A stretch of 64,000 nt of DNA from Thiorhodococcus drewsii AZ1 (GTDB lineage Bacteria > Pseudomonadota > Gammaproteobacteria > Chromatiales > Chromatiaceae): the NCBI RefSeq assembly GCF_000224065.1, contig NZ_AFWT01000019.1:1-64000 (forward strand), read 5' to 3'. The translations under genes and the position numbers were made by a program. The notes below the pieces were generated by a model. It saw only the letters and a list, made by a program, of their open reading frames with translations, did not search any database and was not told the DNA's origin. This document shows, in pieces, positions 41,309-52,873 of this stretch. Position 1 is the stretch's first letter. Every line of letters begins with the position of its first letter.

Positions 41309-43087
41309 GTGGACGAACAGTTATTAACGCTTGAAGACTATCTGGCGATTTTGCGGCGACGTAAATGGCAGCTGATCGTACCGATGCTGCTGTTGTCGGT
41401 GATCGCGGTGTTGGCGGCGTTGCTGATTCCGGCGACCTATCGTTCGAGCGCGACCATCCTGATCGAGCGTCAGGAGATCCCCGACGATCTGGTGCGTACC
41501 ACCGTGACGGGCTATGCCGATCAGCGTATCCAGGTCATCAGTCAACGTGTGATGACCACGGCCAATCTCAGTAAGCTGATCGAGCGTTACGACCTCTACC
41601 CAGAGATCCGTGCCAAGGAGAGCATCAACATGGCGGTCGAGGAGATGCGTAAGCGCATCCAGCTCGACATGATCAGCGCCGATGTTATGGACCCGCGTAG
41701 CGGTCGTCCCCAAGAGGCGACCATCGCCTTTTCGCTCGCGTTCGAGGACGCCTCCCCGGCTGTGGCTCAGAAGGTTACCAGCGAATTGGTCTCGCTGTTC
41801 CTGAGCGAGAATCTGGAGCGGCGCACGGCAGCGGCGAACGAGGCGACGACCTTCCTCAAGGCCGAGGCCGACCGGCTCGGACAGCAGATCAGCACGCTCG
41901 AGGCGCGTCTCGCGGAGTTCAAGGAGAAGAACGGCGACAACCTTCCTGAACTCATGTCGCTCAACCGCGAACTCATGATGCGCACCGAGGAACGGTTGCG
42001 CGACAACACCCAATCCAAACGCACGCTCGAGCAACAGGCCATCTATCTGGAGTCCCAGCTGGCTCAGCTCAGCCCGACCGCAGCCGGGTCCGGTGGCGCC
42101 AGTTTGGAAGGGTATCTGGAACAGCTCCAGGCGCAGTACGTGCGCATCAAGGAAAAATACTCGCCCGAGCATCCGGACCGGATTCAGATGGAGCGCGAGA
42201 TTGCGTCATTGCAGCAGATGATCGGTGATTCGGGCACTGGCGCAATCGAGGCGCGACTGGCCGATCTGAACAAGGAGCTCGCCTCGCTCCGCAAGCGGTA
42301 TTCGGACGATCATCCGGATGTCGTCGCGCTCAGGCGCAGTATCGACTCGACCAAATCTCAGCTGGCCAAGTCGCGCAAGGCCGCTCTCAACGGCGATACT
42401 TTGGCGGCCGCGTCCAACAATCCGGCCTATGTCCAGCTACTTGCCAAGTTGGACTCGACCCGGATCGAAATCGATTCGCTGACCAAGGCGCACGCTCAGC
42501 TCGAGCAACAGCTCGCCCAGTATGAGGAGCGGATCAAGGCCGCGCCCAAGATCGAGCAGGAATACCGTGCCCTGACCCGCGACTACGAGAACGCCTCGCG
42601 CAAGTATAAAGAGGTTCGCGAGAAATCGTTGCAGGCCGAGCTGGCCCAGGCACTCGAACGGGATCGTAAGGGCGAGCGCTTCTCGTTGATCGAGCCGCCG
42701 CTGGTTCCAGAGAAACCCTTCAAGCCGAATCGTCTGGCGATCGCGCTGCTGGGCTTGGTGCTTGCGATCGCCGGTGGAGTCGGAAACATCGCGTTGCGCG
42801 AGGGGCTCGACAAGGGGTTGCATGGGCCCCGTGCCATCCAGTCGGTGACCAAGATCCCTGTGCTGGCACTCATTCCTCGGATCGACACGACGCAGGATCG
42901 GGAGCGCAGGAAGCGGCGCTTCATCTATTTGATTGGTGGCAGTTTCGCTGCCCTGGTGCTCGGTGCATTGCTCTTCCATTTCCTGGTGATGCCGCTCGAT
43001 GTCCTCTGGTTTACCCTGATGCGAAGGCTCGATCTCCTGATGCTGTCCGAATCCACCACCTTGGGTGTTGTCTTATGGAACGTTTGA
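41309..43087 (+). CDS. Polysaccharide co-polymerase / chain-length determinant (Wzz-like)
   Basis: 592 residues from a GTG at 41309 with GGGGG upstream. Wzz domain at the N-terminus with membrane helix about 24-45; long coiled-coil in the periplasm (residues 170-460, such as RLGQQISTLEARLAEFKEK); a second helix near 470-492 after PEKPFKPNRLA; an additional C-terminal hydrophobic part near 535-565. It controls length and export of an exopolysaccharide. Overlaps the kinase-like gene by 13 bases. Confidence 0.87.
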   Translation: MDEQLLTLEDYLAILRRRKWQLIVPMLLLSVIAVLAALLIPATYRSSATILIERQEIPDDLVRTTVTGYADQRIQVISQRVMTTANLSKLIERYDLYPEIRAKESINMAVEEMRKRIQLDMISADVMDPRSGRPQEATIAFSLAFEDASPAVAQKVTSELVSLFLSENLERRTAAANEATTFLKAEADRLGQQISTLEARLAEFKEKNGDNLPELMSLNRELMMRTEERLRDNTQSKRTLEQQAIYLESQLAQLSPTAAGSGGASLEGYLEQLQAQYVRIKEKYSPEHPDRIQMEREIASLQQMIGDSGTGAIEARLADLNKELASLRKRYSDDHPDVVALRRSIDSTKSQLAKSRKAALNGDTLAAASNNPAYVQLLAKLDSTRIEIDSLTKAHAQLEQQLAQYEERIKAAPKIEQEYRALTRDYENASRKYKEVREKSLQAELAQALERDRKGERFSLIEPPLVPEKPFKPNRLAIALLGLVLAIAGGVGNIALREGLDKGLHGPRAIQSVTKIPVLALIPRIDTTQDRERRKRRFIYLIGGSFAALVLGALLFHFLVMPLDVLWFTLMRRLDLLMLSESTTLGVVLWNV

Positions 43088-43926
43088 AGAAGGCGATGGA
43101 GCGTGCTCGGGCCGAACGTCAGGCCTCGCTGGCAGGGTCCGCTGGGCGACCGGAACGACAGAAGGCCGGTGGCTCGCGCTTCGCCCATCGGACGCAACCC
43201 CGGCCGCCGGCGAGTGACGCCAAGGTCGATTACACCCATACCGCGACCCTCGATGTCGACGCCGATGCCATGCGCGAACGACGCGTCATCCTGGCCGATG
43301 GCGTGGATCCGATCGCCGATGCCTACAAGGTGCTGCGAACCCATGTGTTGCAGCGCATGCGGGCGAACGGCTGGAAGACGTTGGCGGTGACCAGTCCAGG
43401 GATCGGGGACGGCAAGACGATCACCTCGATCAATCTGGCGATCAGTCTTGCCAGGGAGGTCAATCAGACGGTGCTGCTCGTCGACCTGGATCTGCGGCGT
43501 CCCTCGATCGGGCGCTATTTCAGCGAGGGGCCGACGCAGGGGATCAGCGATCATCTGACGCATGGTGTCGATCTGGCCGATTTGCTCATCAATCCGGGTA
43601 TCGATCGACTGGTCGTCCTGCCCGGACACGACTCATTCACGCATTCGTCTGAGATGTTGTCCTCGCCACAGCTCGTCCAACTGGTTCGGGAGCTCAAGGA
43701 GCGTTACGAAGATCGCCTCATCCTGTTCGACATGCCGCCGCTTTTCGCCGGGGACGACGTCATCGCCTTTCTGCCCTATGTGGATGCCGTGATGTTGGTC
43801 GTCGAGGACGGCAAGGTCAGCAAATCGGAGCTGGAACAGGCGAACCAGCTTCTCGGCGACAAGAATTTCATCGGAATCGTGCTTAACAAGGCCGAGCAGG
43901 TCGGCGATGTCTCCGGTTACTACTGA
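43075..43926 (+). CDS. Tyrosine-kinase-like capsular polysaccharide ATPase
   Basis: 283 residues. Walker [10 protein letters not shown], Walker A' [11 protein letters not shown], and Walker [11 protein letters not shown] are in the BY-kinase order. The C-terminus has only two tyrosines (GYY), so autophosphorylation is uncertain. Start ATG at 43075 inside the co-polymerase gene. No glycosyltransferases are in the window; the rest of the system must lie elsewhere. Confidence 0.85.
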
Positions 43927-44012: not shown

Positions 44013-46208
<2,196 letters not shown>

Positions 46209-46360
46209 CCTGTAGCCGATTGCGATGGGCGTGCCGAGCCTGCGGTTCCGTGGGCTGCGGCGAATCCTGCTAGACTCGAAATGTCGATGGCCGACCCTTC
46301 CCCCTGACTGCCGCGCGACGAGGTCGGACACCCACTCAGCTTCCCGCCAAGAGGCCTTTC

Positions 46361-47518
46361 ATGCCGCTTTACGAGATGCGCAAATTCGTGGCGCCCGAAT
46401 TCATCTTCGGTGTTGGATCGCGGAGACGCGCCGGCTATTACGCGCTCAACCTCCAGGCGAGACGTCTGCTGGTGGTGACCGATCCGGGCATCATCGCGGC
46501 CGGCTGGATCGACGACCTGATGCCAGTGATCGAGGATATCGGGTTGGAGATCTGCATCTTCAGTGCAATCACTCCCAATCCGCGCGATCACGAGATCATG
46601 GCGGGCGTCGACGTCTACCGCCGCGAGGAGTGCGACGTTATCCTCGCCATCGGGGGCGGCAGCGTCATCGACTCCGCGAAGGCTATCGGCATCGTCGTCG
46701 GCAATGGCGGACACATTCTGGACTATGTTGGGGTGGATCGCATCTCGCTGCCTGGGCCGCCGCTCATTTGCATTCCGACGACTGCGGGAACCGCTGCCGA
46801 CATTTCCCAGTTCGTTATCGTCAATGACTTTAAGCGTCGCTGCAAAACCGCGATCGTGAGCAAGACCGTGGTTCCCGACATTGCGTTGGTGGACCCGGAG
46901 GTCACCCTGACCATGGATCCCTATCTGACGGCCTGTACCGGGCTCGATGTACTGACCCATGCCATCGAGGCCTTCGTTTCGACGGCAAGCTCGCCGGTGG
47001 TCGATATCCATGCGCTCGCGGCCATCGCGCTCGTCAAAGACAATCTATGCCGCGCTGTCTCCGACCCCGACGATCTGGCGGCGCGCGAGAACATGATGCT
47101 GGCCAGTCTCCAAGCGGGGTTGGCCTTTTCAAACGCCAGCTTGGGTGCGGTCCATGCTATGGCGCACAGCCTGGGCGGCTTTTTGGATCTCCCGCACGGC
47201 GAGAGCAATGCGCTGCTGATCGATCATGTGATTCGATTCAACTACGCTGCCGCCGAGGAACGCTATGTGCGTGTCGCGCAGGCTCTGGGGGTCGCGCAGG
47301 AGCGGGAATCCAGCGTCTCTCAGCGGGAGGCGCTTCTGGAGGCATTGCGATCGTTGCGCACCGCTTGCGGTATCGAGGGTGGACTCGCCGAGCGAGGGGT
47401 CTCTCGGAGCGATCTCGCCGAGCTGGCGCCGCCCGTGATCCGAGATGCCTGTATCTTCACCAATCCGCGTCGCGCAGTCCTGGCGGACATCAAGGTCATT
47501 TATGCTGAAGCTCTCTGA
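46361..47518 (+). CDS. Iron-containing alcohol dehydrogenase (ErcA-like)
   Basis: 385 residues. NAD-binding loop [15 protein letters not shown], metal ligands Asp and His in [12 protein letters not shown], His in AMAHSLGG and His in LPHGE are complete. Start [17 protein letters not shown]. Its stop lies inside the PAS-GGDEF-EAL gene, so both are made together. By analogy with Pseudomonas ErcA a role in signal transduction is possible; catalytic alcohol oxidation is equally compatible. Confidence 0.88.
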
Positions 47519-49676
47519 ATTGGACGATGAGTTATTGTGGGAGCTTCAGCGCAATCGCATCATCGGGCTCGGTGAGCGCTCGTTCCGCAAGAACTATTAT
47601 CCGCAGCTGCGCTGTAGCCTCTCGCGGCTCGAACGCTTTCGTGCCCTTCTGGATTGCGCCGGAGAGATGATCCTGCTGGTCGCGTTGCCGAGCGGGCAGG
47701 TGATCGACGCCAATGCGGCCGCCGCCGAGCTGTTGGATCTGCCACTGGATGGTGTGATCGGCCAGCGTCTAGACGTGCTCGGTTTCAGCCATGCCGAGGT
47801 CATCCTCGCCGAACTCGTCGGCGAACAGGCGTCCGGCGGTTCGCCGTCATTGCATCATGAGGTTGCGCTGCAGGCCGGCGATGCCCCGCGACACCTCGAT
47901 CTGGTCTGTCGCGCCGCCGATCTCGATGGCGTGCTCTACGGCGTTCTGCTGGGGCGCGACGCGACCCGGCGCGTTGCAGCCGAGTCGCGTCTGCGTCTTG
48001 CCGCTCGGGTCTTCGCCGACAGCGCCGAGGGTATCCTGGTTGGTGACCGGCGCGGGCGCGTCGTCGAGATCAACCATGCCTTCGAGGCCATCACGGGATA
48101 CGCGCGTGACGAGGTGATGGGATGGCCGATGCACGCCTTTGTCAGTTCCAGGCACGATCCAGGATTCTTTCGCTCCGCGCGCCAGGCCCTGAAGGCGGAC
48201 AATTCCTGGCAGGGCGAGCTCTGGAGCCAGCGCAAGAATCGGGAGATCTATCCCTTGTGGCTGTCGCTCAGCCTGATCCGCGATCATCGGGGGCGGGTGC
48301 AGAATTTTGTCGCCATGTTCTCCGACATCAGCGAACGCAAGGAAAATGAGGCCCGTATCCAGCATATGGCGCACCACGATTTCCTGACCGGATTGCCCAA
48401 CCGTTTTCTGCTGATCGACCGTCTGACACAGCTGCTGGCGACGGCGCGGCGCGACGGTCGGCGTTTCGCCGTGCTCTTCATCGATCTGGATCGCTTCAAG
48501 ACGATCAACGACTCGCTCGGGCATCGCGTCGGCGACCGTTTGCTCTGTGCCATCGGGGAGCGGTTGCGTGGCCGGTTGCGCACCTCGGATACGGTCGCGC
48601 GGCAGGGCGGTGATGAGTTCATCGTGTTGCTCTCGTACATCGAGGGGCCGACCGAGGTGGTGCGCGTCTGCAACATGCTCCTGAGCGCCTTGAGCGAGCC
48701 CTGTCTGTTCGAGGGGCACGAGCTTTCGGTCACGCCCTCGATCGGCGTCGCCATCGGGCCGGATGACGGCACGGACAGTGACACGTTGCTCAAGCATGCC
48801 GATCTGGCCATGTATCAGGTGAAACGGCGGGGGAGGAACGATTTCGAGTTCTTCCGCAATGAGATGCGCGTCCATGTCACCACCCTGCTGCAACTGGAAC
48901 GGGATCTGAGGCATGCGGTCGAGCGCGATGAGCTGGAGGTCTTCTACCAGCCTCAGATGGATCTGCGCCGTGGAGGGCTCGCGGCTGTCGAGGCCCTGTT
49001 GCGCTGGCATCACCCCGAGCGCGGTCTGGTGCTGCCTGGGGATTTCATCCCGCTGGCAGAGGAGTCGCGGCTGATCGTGCCGATTGGCGAATGGGTTCTT
49101 CGCACCGCCTGCCGCCAGCTCGCCGCATGGCGTGCCGGTCAATGGCCCGAGCTGCGCCTGGCGGTCAATCTCTCCCCGGTCCAGTTCCAGCAGGCAGAAC
49201 TGATCGAGGTGGTTCGCTCCGCCCTGGATGACTCGGGTCTGGATCCCGAGGTGCTCGAACTCGAGGTGACCGAGGGCCTGTTGATGGATAACCGGGATCT
49301 CACGCTACAGGCGCTCGCGGACTTGAAGGCGATGGGCATTCGACTCTCGATCGACGACTTCGGTACGGGCTACTCGTCGTTGGTCTATCTCAAGCGTTTT
49401 CCTGTCGGGCAGCTGAAAATCGATCGTTCCTTCGTGCGCGACCTGCTCGAAGACAGGGGGGATGCCGCGATCTGCGAGACCATCATCGCGCTCGCGGGGC
49501 ATCTGGATCTGGAGGTGGTTGCGGAGGGTGTCGAGCAAGTCGAGCAGCTCGATTGGCTGCGCGAGGCTGGATGTGACCGTGCCCAGGGGTATCTCCTGGG
49601 GCGCCCGATGTCGGTTGATGCGCTTGAGCGACGCCTATCCGGCGATGCCGGACTGCTTTCGCTCGGATCCGCGTAG
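47502..49676 (+). CDS. PAS-PAS-GGDEF-EAL cyclic-di-GMP protein
   Basis: 724 residues from the ATG at 47502. Two PAS-like domains in the first 280 residues ([63 protein letters not shown]), GGDEF near residue 369 ([11 protein letters not shown]) and EAL near 497 (VEALLRW) with [10 protein letters not shown]. Both active motifs are intact, so cyclase and phosphodiesterase activity are possible. Overlaps the dehydrogenase gene by 17 bases. Confidence 0.9.
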
Positions 49677-49689
49677 CAGGGTATCCGTG

Positions 49690-49712
49690 CCGAGGGCCGG
49701 TTCGGCCCTCGG
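49690..49712. terminator. Bidirectional terminator hairpin
   Basis: CCGAGGGCCG and its exact complement CGGCCCTCGG around a GTT loop, between the convergent PAS-GGDEF-EAL gene (stop 49676) and prkB (stop 49731). Perfect 10-bp stem; no clear T-run. Confidence 0.7.
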
Positions 49713-49730
49713 GCGTTCGTGGGGGCCGGG

Positions 49731-50621
49731 TTAGACCTTGCGTGCCTCCATCATGCGCTCGATGATCGGCTGGAGAATGATCTCCATCGCCATTCCCATC
49801 TTACCGCCAGGCACCACCATGCTGTTGCGCCGCGACATGAAGGAGTCGTGGATCATCGACAGCAGGTAAGGGAAGTCCACCTGTAGCTTTTCCGGATCCT
49901 TGAAGCGGATGATGACGAAGCTCTCGTCCGGCGTCGGAATGTCGCGGGCGATGAAGGGGTTTGAGGTATCGACGGTCGGAACGCGCTGGAAGTTGATGTC
50001 GGTCAGCGAGAACTGCGGTGTGATATAGCGGATGTAGTCGGGCATACGGCGCATGATCGTATCGACGATGGCCTCCGCCGAATAGCCGCGCTCCAGATTA
50101 TCCCGGTGGATTTTCTGGATCCATTCCAGGTTGACGATCGGAACCACACCGACGCCGAGATCCACATGCTGCGCGATATTGTCCTCCTCGGTGACGATGA
50201 GGCCGTGCAGCCCCTCGTAGAAGAGCAGATCCGTGTTGCCGGGAAGTTCCTCCCAGGGGGTGAACTGGCCCGGCTTGAGATCGGTGTCGAGGCGGGCGTT
50301 GTGCTCTTGCGCCTCGTCGTCGCTGTGGATGTAGTAACGCTGCTTGCCGGTGCCGCTTTCACCGTAGTCGCGGAACAGCTCTTCGAGTAGGTCGAAGCGG
50401 TTGGCTGCGGGGCCGAAGTGGCTGAGGCTGCTACCTTGTTCCGTGTACTTCGCCATCTCGGCCTTCATCGTCACGCGGTCGTAGCGATGGAAGCTGTCGC
50501 CCTCGATGACAGCTGCACTGATGCCGTCGCGATAGAAAATATGCTCGAATGCACGCTTGACTGTGGTGGTTCCCGCCCCGGACGATCCGGTGACAGCGAC
50601 GATAGGATGTTTTTTCGACAT
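49731..50621 (-). CDS. prkB: Phosphoribulokinase
   Basis: 296 residues. P-loop-like VAVTGSSGAGTTTVKRAFEHIFYRDG and LFYEGLHGLIVTEED match the proteobacterial enzyme. It makes ribulose-1,5-bisphosphate for Rubisco. It stands alone: no other Calvin-cycle gene is in the window. Confidence 0.95.
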   Translation of the reverse strand: MSKKHPIVAVTGSSGAGTTTVKRAFEHIFYRDGISAAVIEGDSFHRYDRVTMKAEMAKYTEQGSSLSHFGPAANRFDLLEELFRDYGESGTGKQRYYIHSDDEAQEHNARLDTDLKPGQFTPWEELPGNTDLLFYEGLHGLIVTEEDNIAQHVDLGVGVVPIVNLEWIQKIHRDNLERGYSAEAIVDTIMRRMPDYIRYITPQFSLTDINFQRVPTVDTSNPFIARDIPTPDESFVIIRFKDPEKLQVDFPYLLSMIHDSFMSRRNSMVVPGGKMGMAMEIILQPIIERMMEARKV

Positions 50622-50761: not shown

Positions 50762-52873
50762 ATGGCTTTCGATGTCGCGAGCGAGCGGGTTCGAATCGGC
50801 TCCGGACTCAGGGCCGATGTCGTTGCAAATCCCGATCTGCAATCCGCGCTGGTACGCTTGGTCACCTGCGTTCTCGGCGCGGCCTATATCGGCCTTGCGG
50901 CCTGGACCCACTACTACCGGATCGATGTCTCGCTCTATCTCACGGTCTTCGGCATCTATCTGTTGACCAGTCTGGCCCTGTTGGTTAGCGTCATCCGGCA
51001 CCCTGGATGGCGAGTGCGGCGTTATCTGGCGCTATCGCTCGACGTCATCGTCGTCAGTCTGGCGATCTTGATTACCCAGGATGCCATCAGTCCCTTCTAT
51101 CTCCTCTATATCCTCATCTTCATCTCGGCCGGCACCCGTTTCGGTCGGAGGCACCTGATCTTGGCAACCCTGGTCGCGGTCGTCGCCTACAATTTCGTGT
51201 TGATTCAACTCGACGAATGGGAGCGTCATACCTATGAAGCGGCCTTTTTCCTGGTCCTGTTGATCTTGCTACCGCTCTATCAGTCTTCGCTGCTGCGTCA
51301 GATCCAGGAGGCCCGTGATCAGGCCCAGCGGGCCAACAAGGCGAAGAGCGATTTTCTGGCTGTCATGACCCATGAGCTGCGCACCCCGCTCACCGGGCTT
51401 GTCGGCATGGTGGAACTGCTGAAGACGACGCGCCTCGACGCGGAGCAGCGCGAGCATCTCCGTGATATCGACACGGCTGCGAATGCGCTCGCCATGCTGG
51501 TTGGCGACATCCTGGACCTGTCCAAGATCGAGGCGGGCAAGCTGGTGCTCGAACGCATTCCATTCGATCCGCGCGACCTGGTCCGTCAGGTGTGCGGCGT
51601 CGTTTCCAGCAAGGCACTGGAGGCTGGGCTCGAACTCGTGTGCCGCGTGGAGAGCGAGGTGCCGCGATCCGTCATGGGCGATCCCTTGCGGGTGCGTCAG
51701 ATCCTCTTCAATCTCGTGGGGAATGCGATCAAGTTCACGCCGCAAGGCCAGGTGCTGCTGCGCCTGAGTCTAGAGTCGCCCGAGGCGGATCGGATGGGGG
51801 CGCGGCTGCTGTTCGAGATCGTTGACAGCGGGATCGGTATCTCGGCCGACAAGCTCGACACACTCTTCGAGCGTTTTACGCAGGTCGATGATTCGACCAC
51901 GCGCCGTTTCGGCGGCACGGGTCTCGGTACCACGATCGCGCGCGATCTGTCCGGTCTGATGGGCGGTTCGATTGAGGTCGCAAGCGAGGAGGGTCGGGGA
52001 AGTCGGTTCTCGGTCCGGCTGCCGCTGGTCGAAGTCGATGACCTGCCGCTGGCGCCGGATGTGGATTGGGGTCTTGCCGGATTGCGCGTGCTGGTGATCG
52101 AACGCAATGACCTGCAGCGTGCTTGTGTCCAGGACGCCTTGGAGTCGGCCGGCTGTGTGTTATCGAGTGCGGCCGAGTCCCAGAAAATTGCGCGCGGGGC
52201 AGGGGGTTGCGATCTGCTCGTGATCGGCGATCCGCCGACCGGGTGCGATCTCGCGTCGGAGTTGTCCGAGGTCCGTCGGGCGTTGGCTGCCGAGCCGCCC
52301 TGTCTCTTGCTCACCTATGCCGGTCGTCGTCCCATTCCTCGCGCGGATACGCTGAGCTACTTGAACAAGCCGTTTCTGGCCGAGGATCTGCTGCGGCGCG
52401 CCAGTGCATTGATGGGGCGTCTGCCGGAGAGCGTCATGGCTCGGGATCGGGACATGCAATCGGCCTTGGTCGAGACCGAGTCGGCGGGCGGCATCCGGGT
52501 CCTGGTCGCCGAAGACAACCCGCTCGCGGCCAAGGTGTTGACCGCCTTTCTCTCCCGGATGGGGTTTCCATACGCGCGTTTCAGCGATGGCGAGACCGCG
52601 CTGAAGGAAGCACTGAAGGGCGTCTACGACATCGCGATCGTGGATCTGAACATGCCTAAGCTGGGTGGAATCGACTTTGTCCGACGCTATCGGGCCGAGC
52701 GCGCCGACCATCCTCTGCCGATCGTCGCCCTGACGGCGAGCGCCTCGGAAGAGGTCAGGCAAGACTGTCTGGCGGCTGGAATGGCGGGCTTCCTGGTGAA
52801 GCCCGTCAGTCCGGAGGCGCTACGCCAGACAATTGAGCGTCTGGCGCTGGTCGCTCAGCCGGTGGCGGGCTGA
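50762..52873 (+). CDS. RpfC-like membrane hybrid histidine kinase with receiver
   Basis: 703 residues. About five membrane helices in the first 175 residues, the last part reading ISPFYLLYILIFISAGTRFGRRHLILAT, as in the DSF sensor RpfC; HisKA with His204 (VMTHELRTPL); HATPase with DSGIGI and GGTGLGTTIA; a degenerate receiver-like stretch about 440-560; a canonical receiver with Asp628 (IVDLNMP). No HPt domain at the end. Signal unknown. It is divergent from prkB, and its 3' end overlaps the rnfE stop region by 19 bases. Confidence 0.87.
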   Translation: MAFDVASERVRIGSGLRADVVANPDLQSALVRLVTCVLGAAYIGLAAWTHYYRIDVSLYLTVFGIYLLTSLALLVSVIRHPGWRVRRYLALSLDVIVVSLAILITQDAISPFYLLYILIFISAGTRFGRRHLILATLVAVVAYNFVLIQLDEWERHTYEAAFFLVLLILLPLYQSSLLRQIQEARDQAQRANKAKSDFLAVMTHELRTPLTGLVGMVELLKTTRLDAEQREHLRDIDTAANALAMLVGDILDLSKIEAGKLVLERIPFDPRDLVRQVCGVVSSKALEAGLELVCRVESEVPRSVMGDPLRVRQILFNLVGNAIKFTPQGQVLLRLSLESPEADRMGARLLFEIVDSGIGISADKLDTLFERFTQVDDSTTRRFGGTGLGTTIARDLSGLMGGSIEVASEEGRGSRFSVRLPLVEVDDLPLAPDVDWGLAGLRVLVIERNDLQRACVQDALESAGCVLSSAAESQKIARGAGGCDLLVIGDPPTGCDLASELSEVRRALAAEPPCLLLTYAGRRPIPRADTLSYLNKPFLAEDLLRRASALMGRLPESVMARDRDMQSALVETESAGGIRVLVAEDNPLAAKVLTAFLSRMGFPYARFSDGETALKEALKGVYDIAIVDLNMPKLGGIDFVRRYRAERADHPLPIVALTASASEEVRQDCLAAGMAGFLVKPVSPEALRQTIERLALVAQPVAG

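Follow-up and report, generated by a model that had tools for sequence, protein, structure and literature searches.

An ErcA-family dehydrogenase encoded directly before a tagged PAS-PAS-GGDEF-EAL protein in Thiorhodococcus drewsii AZ1: a probable two-piece alcohol sensor with cyclic-di-GMP output

In the window, i.e. the stretch of 64,000 nucleotides of Thiorhodococcus drewsii AZ1 contig NZ_AFWT01000019.1 that was analysed, an iron-dependent alcohol dehydrogenase (Fe-ADH) of the ErcA family is encoded directly before a cyclic-di-GMP enzyme that carries a short conserved tag near its N-terminus. The pair corresponds to the ErcA-ErcS arrangement, except that a cyclic-di-GMP enzyme takes the place of the histidine kinase; the ErcA family and this arrangement are already known, the cyclic-di-GMP output is new. 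We state with high confidence that the pair is real, conserved and functional as a pair. That ErcA serves as direct sensor for the cyclic-di-GMP enzyme is considered quite probable, and nearly the same holds for the reading of both proteins as a two-piece alcohol sensor. The features of the locus are as follows:

46361..47518 (+): ercA, iron-dependent alcohol dehydrogenase-like regulatory protein, 385 amino acids (NF041833 score, presumed iron ligands, GGGS motif)
46379..46399 (+): ErcA-specific N-terminal tail RKFVAPE (residues 7-13), candidate docking element (residue conservation, model)
47502..47518 (+): 17-base overlap, putative translational coupling (17 bases exactly in 29 of 44 related pairs)
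47502..49676 (+): tag-PAS-PAS-GGDEF-EAL protein, 724 amino acids (open reading frame, domain matches)
47559..47609 (+): N-terminal tag, residues 20-36, 17 residues (profile alignment A3)
47631..47786 (+): first PAS region, PAS_8 match, residues 44-95 (domain match; PAS-like fold in the model)
48027..48335 (+): second PAS region, PAS_9, residues 176-278 (domain match; model)
48369..48839 (+): GGDEF domain, GGDEF and RxxD motifs intact (domain match, motif reading)
48900..49607 (+): EAL domain, EAL signature intact (domain match, motif reading)

The first protein was assigned to ErcA by NF041833 with 599.6 bits against a curated equivalog cut-off of 550 (next family: 327 bits); it also matched PF00465 and PF25137, and its model showed the Fe-ADH fold with a mean pLDDT of 92.3. 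Asp-196 and His-200 were present in all 67 aligned ErcA rows, His-265 and His-279 in all 64 rows reaching these positions, and the GGGS motif was conserved in the ErcA rows as well; we take the four residues to be the iron ligands, and the role of the GGGS motif is likewise presumed. With its metal ligands invariant, ErcA is probably capable of binding metal, NAD and substrate. Compared with control Fe-ADHs, 16 positions differed, among them Ala-146, Ser-149 and Gln-150 as well as Arg-7, Lys-8 and Glu-13 of the N-terminal tail; the latter three were found without exception in the ErcA rows covering these positions, versus no more than 13% of the 16 controls. The complete tail pattern RKF[VI]x[PS]E was found in 61 of 67 ErcA rows versus none of the 16 controls (the remaining six deviate slightly from it or are truncated where the match ends). 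The model shows a loose tail: residues 1-6 had a pLDDT below 50, and none of residues 1-12 was part of a secondary structure element. A regulatory role of the window ErcA in an alcohol response is assumed by analogy with the Pseudomonas members of the family.

The ercA gene (46361-47518, plus strand) ends 17 bases inside the second gene (47502-49676, plus strand), as the preliminary description had stated: the stop codon TGA occupies 47516-47518, and the second gene starts with the ATG at 47502 (its longest open reading frame would begin earlier, at 47445). Upstream lies recQ, and downstream, on the opposite strand, a phosphoribulokinase gene; no alcohol gene adjoins the pair in the window, which was counted against the reading as alcohol sensor. 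A promoter scan of 46100-49760 returned no promoter-like site.

The second protein matched PAS regions, GGDEF (163.6 bits) and EAL (255.9 bits), and its GGDEF motif, RxxD inhibitory site and EAL signature are all intact; with the functional meanings that we presume for these motifs, it reads as a putative bifunctional diguanylate cyclase/phosphodiesterase. There was no HATPase_c match in this protein, i.e. the hybrid kinase of ErcA-ErcS is missing, and the window pair is therefore not an ErcA-ErcS pair in the strict sense. In the model of the partner, residues 23-29 (part of the tag, where the first helix ends) formed the only stretch besides residues 1-3 with a pLDDT below 50, and this stretch precedes the helix leading into the first PAS domain. 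A comparison of its two parts suggests a joint between the tag with the first PAS region and the remaining PAS2-GGDEF-EAL portion: residues 1-155 shared 48 and 47% identity with the Burkholderiaceae and Azoarcus partners, and none of the paralogues tested from the same genome exceeded 33% over 48 residues, while PAS2-GGDEF-EAL scored 420-517 bits with all seven own-genome paralogues tested, versus 405 bits with the Burkholderiaceae partner and 400 bits with the Azoarcus partner. The three closest partners (L067, L042, L043) gave the top scores over both parts; their PAS2-GGDEF-EAL portions (626-798 bits) were nearer to the window protein than its own paralogues, and a recent exchange of the cassette is thus contradicted, which was counted against the sensor reading.

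ErcA was rare in the genomes surveyed: it exceeded the NF041833 cut-off in four of 146 genomes of the family of the window (plus one in which it is split in two pieces), in two of 369 genomes of the class and in 17 of 244 genomes of another gammaproteobacterial order, probably Pseudomonadales (the order of G306). When named genomes were scanned with an ErcA alignment of three rows, 48 ErcA loci were obtained, and in 45 of these a tagged protein starts directly downstream of ErcA (44 as open reading frame, one, L050, in the remaining 133 bases); in the other three the contig ends inside ErcA (L086, L088) or only an ErcA fragment is present (L087, with a GGDEF motif in a frame approximately 570 bases beyond). 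With the partner start set by a fixed rule (the ATG nearest to the ErcA stop), 29 of 44 related pairs had an overlap of precisely 17 bases, and 38 had one of at least one base. Judged by record titles and taxonomy, these loci belong to Pseudomonadota, Thermodesulfobacteriota, Chloroflexota, Verrucomicrobiota, Lentisphaerota, Ignavibacteriota, Bacteroidota, Cyanobacteriota and methanogens, many of them being MAGs in which binning may misname the organism; a Bacillota record (L158) with ErcA and tagged partner adds one further taxon. A tagged protein also followed ErcA in all 17 above-cut-off loci of the order of G306 and in five further loci of the phylum. ErcA together with a tagged GGDEF-EAL protein recurred in eight further genomes (L042, L043, L047, L064, L067, L069, L085, L141); these and the 45 of 48 tagged loci answer the question that the preliminary description had left to a conservation check, and a pairing confined to this genome, which it had named among its grounds for refutation, does not apply. 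In three loci ercA is interrupted while the frame of the tagged partner is open, by frameshifts in Thiorhodococcus minor (L067, 6001-7154) and Desulfobulbus elongatus (L083, 6001-7150) and by a stop codon in L078 (6001-7143); sequencing error and gene loss or decay are indistinguishable here, and these cases were counted against the sensor reading.

The tag is characterized by the pattern GLGxxSxRKxYYPxL near the start of the partner, with Gly-22, Ser-27 and Lys-30 invariant in 45 partners. A profile (A3) was made from an alignment of the partner N-terminal region (26 rows) and applied with an E-value threshold of 0.001. In the family of the window it matched one protein in each of five of 146 genomes, exactly the five with ErcA and directly behind it, and in the order of G306 it matched in 17 of 244 genomes, the same 17 with ErcA above cut-off; both counts are partly circular, because A3 holds rows of the window and of genomes recurring among the matches. 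At the phylum level, 17 of 398 genomes were matched, each time beside ErcA (12 by position, five checked separately). All tag counts are lower bounds, since only part of the candidates was scored in many genomes (44 of 61 and 16 of 61 in the genome of the window itself, where a single tagged protein was found with 44 of 61 candidates scored). The order of G306 gave three additional, weaker matches (E 0.002-0.0075), all of them restricted to the helix that follows the tag. Beside other Fe-ADHs no tagged neighbor was detected in any of 41 control loci, including the 16 next-best ones (340-433 bits); in two of the 41 (L015, L016) the sequence available downstream is shorter than 300 bases, and at one control locus (L012) an EAL match lies on the opposite strand, not more than 1.5 kb away. 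Six other Fe-ADH places from the order of G306 that scored below cut-off lie outside this set. The five new phylum matches and these Fe-ADH controls are the stronger part of the evidence that links tag and ErcA. Two broader interpretations of the tag were rejected, namely that of a general N-terminus of PAS proteins (at E 0.001 it matched only beside ErcA) and that of a trait common to Fe-ADHs in general (0 of 41 loci).

An ErcA-like match was present in 70 plasmid records, of which five were inspected: those of Tsukamurella and Mycolicibacterium hold kinase pairs with a weak tag, that of Acetoanaerobium holds the tag, and no tag match was obtained in those of Acinetobacter schindleri and Cupriavidus necator. 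The Cupriavidus necator Fe-ADH (L159, 3001-4131) is 46% identical to the window ErcA, and its N-terminus is not RKFVxPE; a search of the surrounding 7 kb gave no tag match, so that this locus is a useful negative control.

The outputs behind the tag were exchanged in evolution. Pfam typing of 45 partners (44 and that of the window; L050, in which the tag was read, stands outside this set) gave HATPase_c in 37 and GGDEF plus EAL in eight; these are family counts, and individual members were named by a pattern script whose kinase pattern missed kinases counted by Pfam. The eight GGDEF-EAL partners are those of the window, two Competibacteraceae MAGs, an Azoarcus MAG, Thiorhodococcus minor, a Burkholderiaceae MAG and two MAGs labelled delta proteobacterium and Desulfovibrionaceae; a ninth was found in genome G761 (L141). 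In Acetoanaerobium noterae (L158, 2974-5596; the record is labelled plasmid and comprises 2.6 Mb) ErcA is accompanied by a tag-GGDEF-HD protein, HD-GYP by sequence reading. Four of the 17 partners from the order of G306 were scanned and reached 412-436 bits with the NahK/ErcS family NF041832 (cut-off 400), with HisKA, HATPase_c and receiver domains; the tag hence belongs to ErcS-type kinases as well. The set of 17 rests on tblastn, that of the five extra phylum partners on sequence reading. All ten cyclic-di-GMP partners keep EAL (ETL in L141) or an HD domain, and in three of the ten the GGDEF motif is altered (GGDEL, GGDKF, GGNEF). A tree was computed from 67 tagged ErcAs together with 16 control Fe-ADHs; in it the tagged ErcAs stand apart (support 97/95), and at least six output changes are needed on the ErcA tree. 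A single origin of the GGDEF-EAL output, with the nine rows held together, was rejected (AU p 2.7e-6; three of the rows are long-branched).

Based on these results, the following mechanism is proposed. With NAD(H) and iron, ErcA would bind an alcohol or the corresponding aldehyde and probably also convert it, and would dock on the short N-terminal tag of its partner; its ligand or turnover state may then be passed through the helix after the tag to the PAS domains and on to the GGDEF-EAL output, and alcohol availability would thereby alter cyclic-di-GMP, most likely through the phosphodiesterase. That the latter is the main controlled activity is a guess from the retention of EAL or HD in ten partners and the altered GGDEF in three. 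Docking, ligand, direction of the cyclic-di-GMP change and the phosphodiesterase as main output are thus what we infer for this pair.

One alternative takes ErcA for a normal dehydrogenase of catabolism whose gene is transcribed together with that of the cyclic-di-GMP enzyme; the PAS domains of the latter would then sense redox state, product aldehyde or NADH without any contact between the proteins. The retained catalytic residues of the dehydrogenase would suit this view, as would the N-terminal PAS pair, the folds of which resemble in the model comparison those of the redox and oxygen sensors DosP, FixL and MmoS; yet it leaves unexplained why the link between tag and ErcA extends across phyla while the outputs behind the tag change, and why the 16 next-best Fe-ADH loci are devoid of tagged partners, and it is regarded as rather unlikely. 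Alternatively, the tag might serve dimerization or another partner, with ErcA linked only through a shared cassette: in the model it adjoins the long helix into the first PAS domain, a usual place for dimer contacts, and the two genes overlap and would therefore be inherited together. However, the same tag is kept with kinase, EAL and HD outputs, and the tail of ErcA is itself ErcA-specific (61 of 67 rows versus 0 of 16 controls), which makes this explanation clearly improbable. A functionally meaningless chance overlap within an operon, as might be supposed from the many overlaps in compact genomes and from the 99 places similar to the second protein in this genome, was rejected, being already refuted by the conservation of tag (45 of 48 loci) and 17-base overlap (29 of 44 pairs) in many phyla, and is given next to no credence.

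The two-piece sensor can be compared with several known systems. In ErcA-ErcS of Pseudomonas aeruginosa and YiaY-PP_2683 of P. putida an ErcA member is likewise followed directly by a signalling protein; in contrast to the window pair with its GGDEF-EAL output and without an adjoining PQQ gene, that protein is a hybrid histidine kinase acting on the transcription of PQQ-alcohol genes. This comparison was made through the loci from the order of G306 and the published papers rather than through named Pseudomonas sequences. In P. putida, inactivation of yiaY (ercA) or of its kinase gene represses the ped cluster, a mutation of His-281 of YiaY impairs induction, and AlphaFold3 predicts contact between the N-terminal domains of YiaY and the kinase (PMC12997753); the same paper, from 2026, calls the mode of ErcA signalling unresolved. 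In passages of two other papers ErcA/YiaY is treated as regulatory partner of the kinase (PMC7427536, PMC10308882). The link to Pseudomonas ErcA drawn in the preliminary description was thus right both by family (NF041833) and by arrangement (PMC12997753; four partners of the NahK/ErcS family).

In the actinobacterial plasmid pairs (L094, L095) an ErcA-like dehydrogenase likewise directly precedes a histidine kinase, and MnoS/MSMEG_6239 of Mycobacterium smegmatis may belong with such pairs; the plasmid pairs differ by kinases of the HisKA_3 type, one with a weak GAF match, without PAS match. L094 and L095 have a degenerate tag, GKSSYYPQYR, with weak scores (E 0.0001 and 0.002). Both pairs (L094, 3962-6468; L095, 3908-6549) lie near methanol dehydrogenase/mycofactocin or monooxygenase genes. 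According to passages of PMC11303327, MnoSR regulates alcohol genes.

DosP, FixL and MmoS share the tandem PAS arrangement with the window partner; sensors of this type carry their own cofactor sensor and have no separate enzyme sensor. The nitric oxide system NosP-NahK-NarR of Legionella, as described in part of PMC8846402, resembles the window pair insofar as a separate sensor controls a signalling protein and finally cyclic-di-GMP, but it uses a FIST sensor and proceeds via a kinase and a phosphorelay; neither window protein matches a FIST sensor or a NosP-NahK-type kinase. In the order of G306 each genome with ErcA yielded a single tagged protein, namely the partner of ErcA, so that a second, NahK-like protein is not visibly tagged there. 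The ethanol passages in this census of cyclic-di-GMP stimuli name the Wsp system only (PMC8846402), and no pairing of ErcA or another Fe-ADH with GGDEF was described in the open-licence PMC papers searched, as judged by title and beginning of the abstract.

Beyond the window, the genome encodes a PQQ alcohol dehydrogenase (TIGR03075, 761.6 bits over two pieces; L157). Such an enzyme exceeded the cut-off in all five ErcA-bearing genomes of the family (the frameshifted one counted) versus ten of the 141 without ErcA (Fisher 5.8e-6, a value that ignores kinship; the ErcA genomes span three genera); within these genera (g1, g4, g23), the listed members without ErcA (G049; G003; G022, G070, G100) were not among the PQQ matches. 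The ten genomes with the PQQ enzyme and without ErcA were counted against the sensor reading, as was the restriction of this link to three genera. The co-occurrence appears to mirror the situation in Pseudomonas, where ErcA governs PQQ-alcohol genes (PMC12997753).

In a wider sense, we incline to the view that ErcA is a detachable sensory domain that plugs into a tag of approximately 20 residues, with outputs (histidine kinases, GGDEF-EAL, GGDEF-HD-GYP) swapped behind it in bacteria and apparently some archaea, such that the alcohol state would be conveyed to transcription or directly to cyclic-di-GMP. The tag offers a small candidate docking site, and the cyclic-di-GMP partners allow a direct readout (turnover with ErcA, NAD and alcohol) that is absent from the kinase systems. 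If true, the pair would provide a one-step route from carbon-source enzymology to the messenger of biofilm formation and motility, and the tag could serve in the search for, or the construction of, alcohol-responsive receptors.

Exopolysaccharide is a usual target of cyclic-di-GMP. Just upstream of recQ, at 41309-43926, the window contains a polysaccharide chain-length determinant of the XrtA system (TIGR03007, above cut-off) together with a tyrosine-kinase-like gene (TIGR03018, below cut-off). Two genes downstream of the pair, at 50762-52873, a hybrid histidine kinase-like protein is encoded (best NCBIfam match BarA, 362 bits, below cut-off). The 99 places in this genome that are similar to the PAS-GGDEF-EAL protein point to a very large cyclic-di-GMP repertoire.
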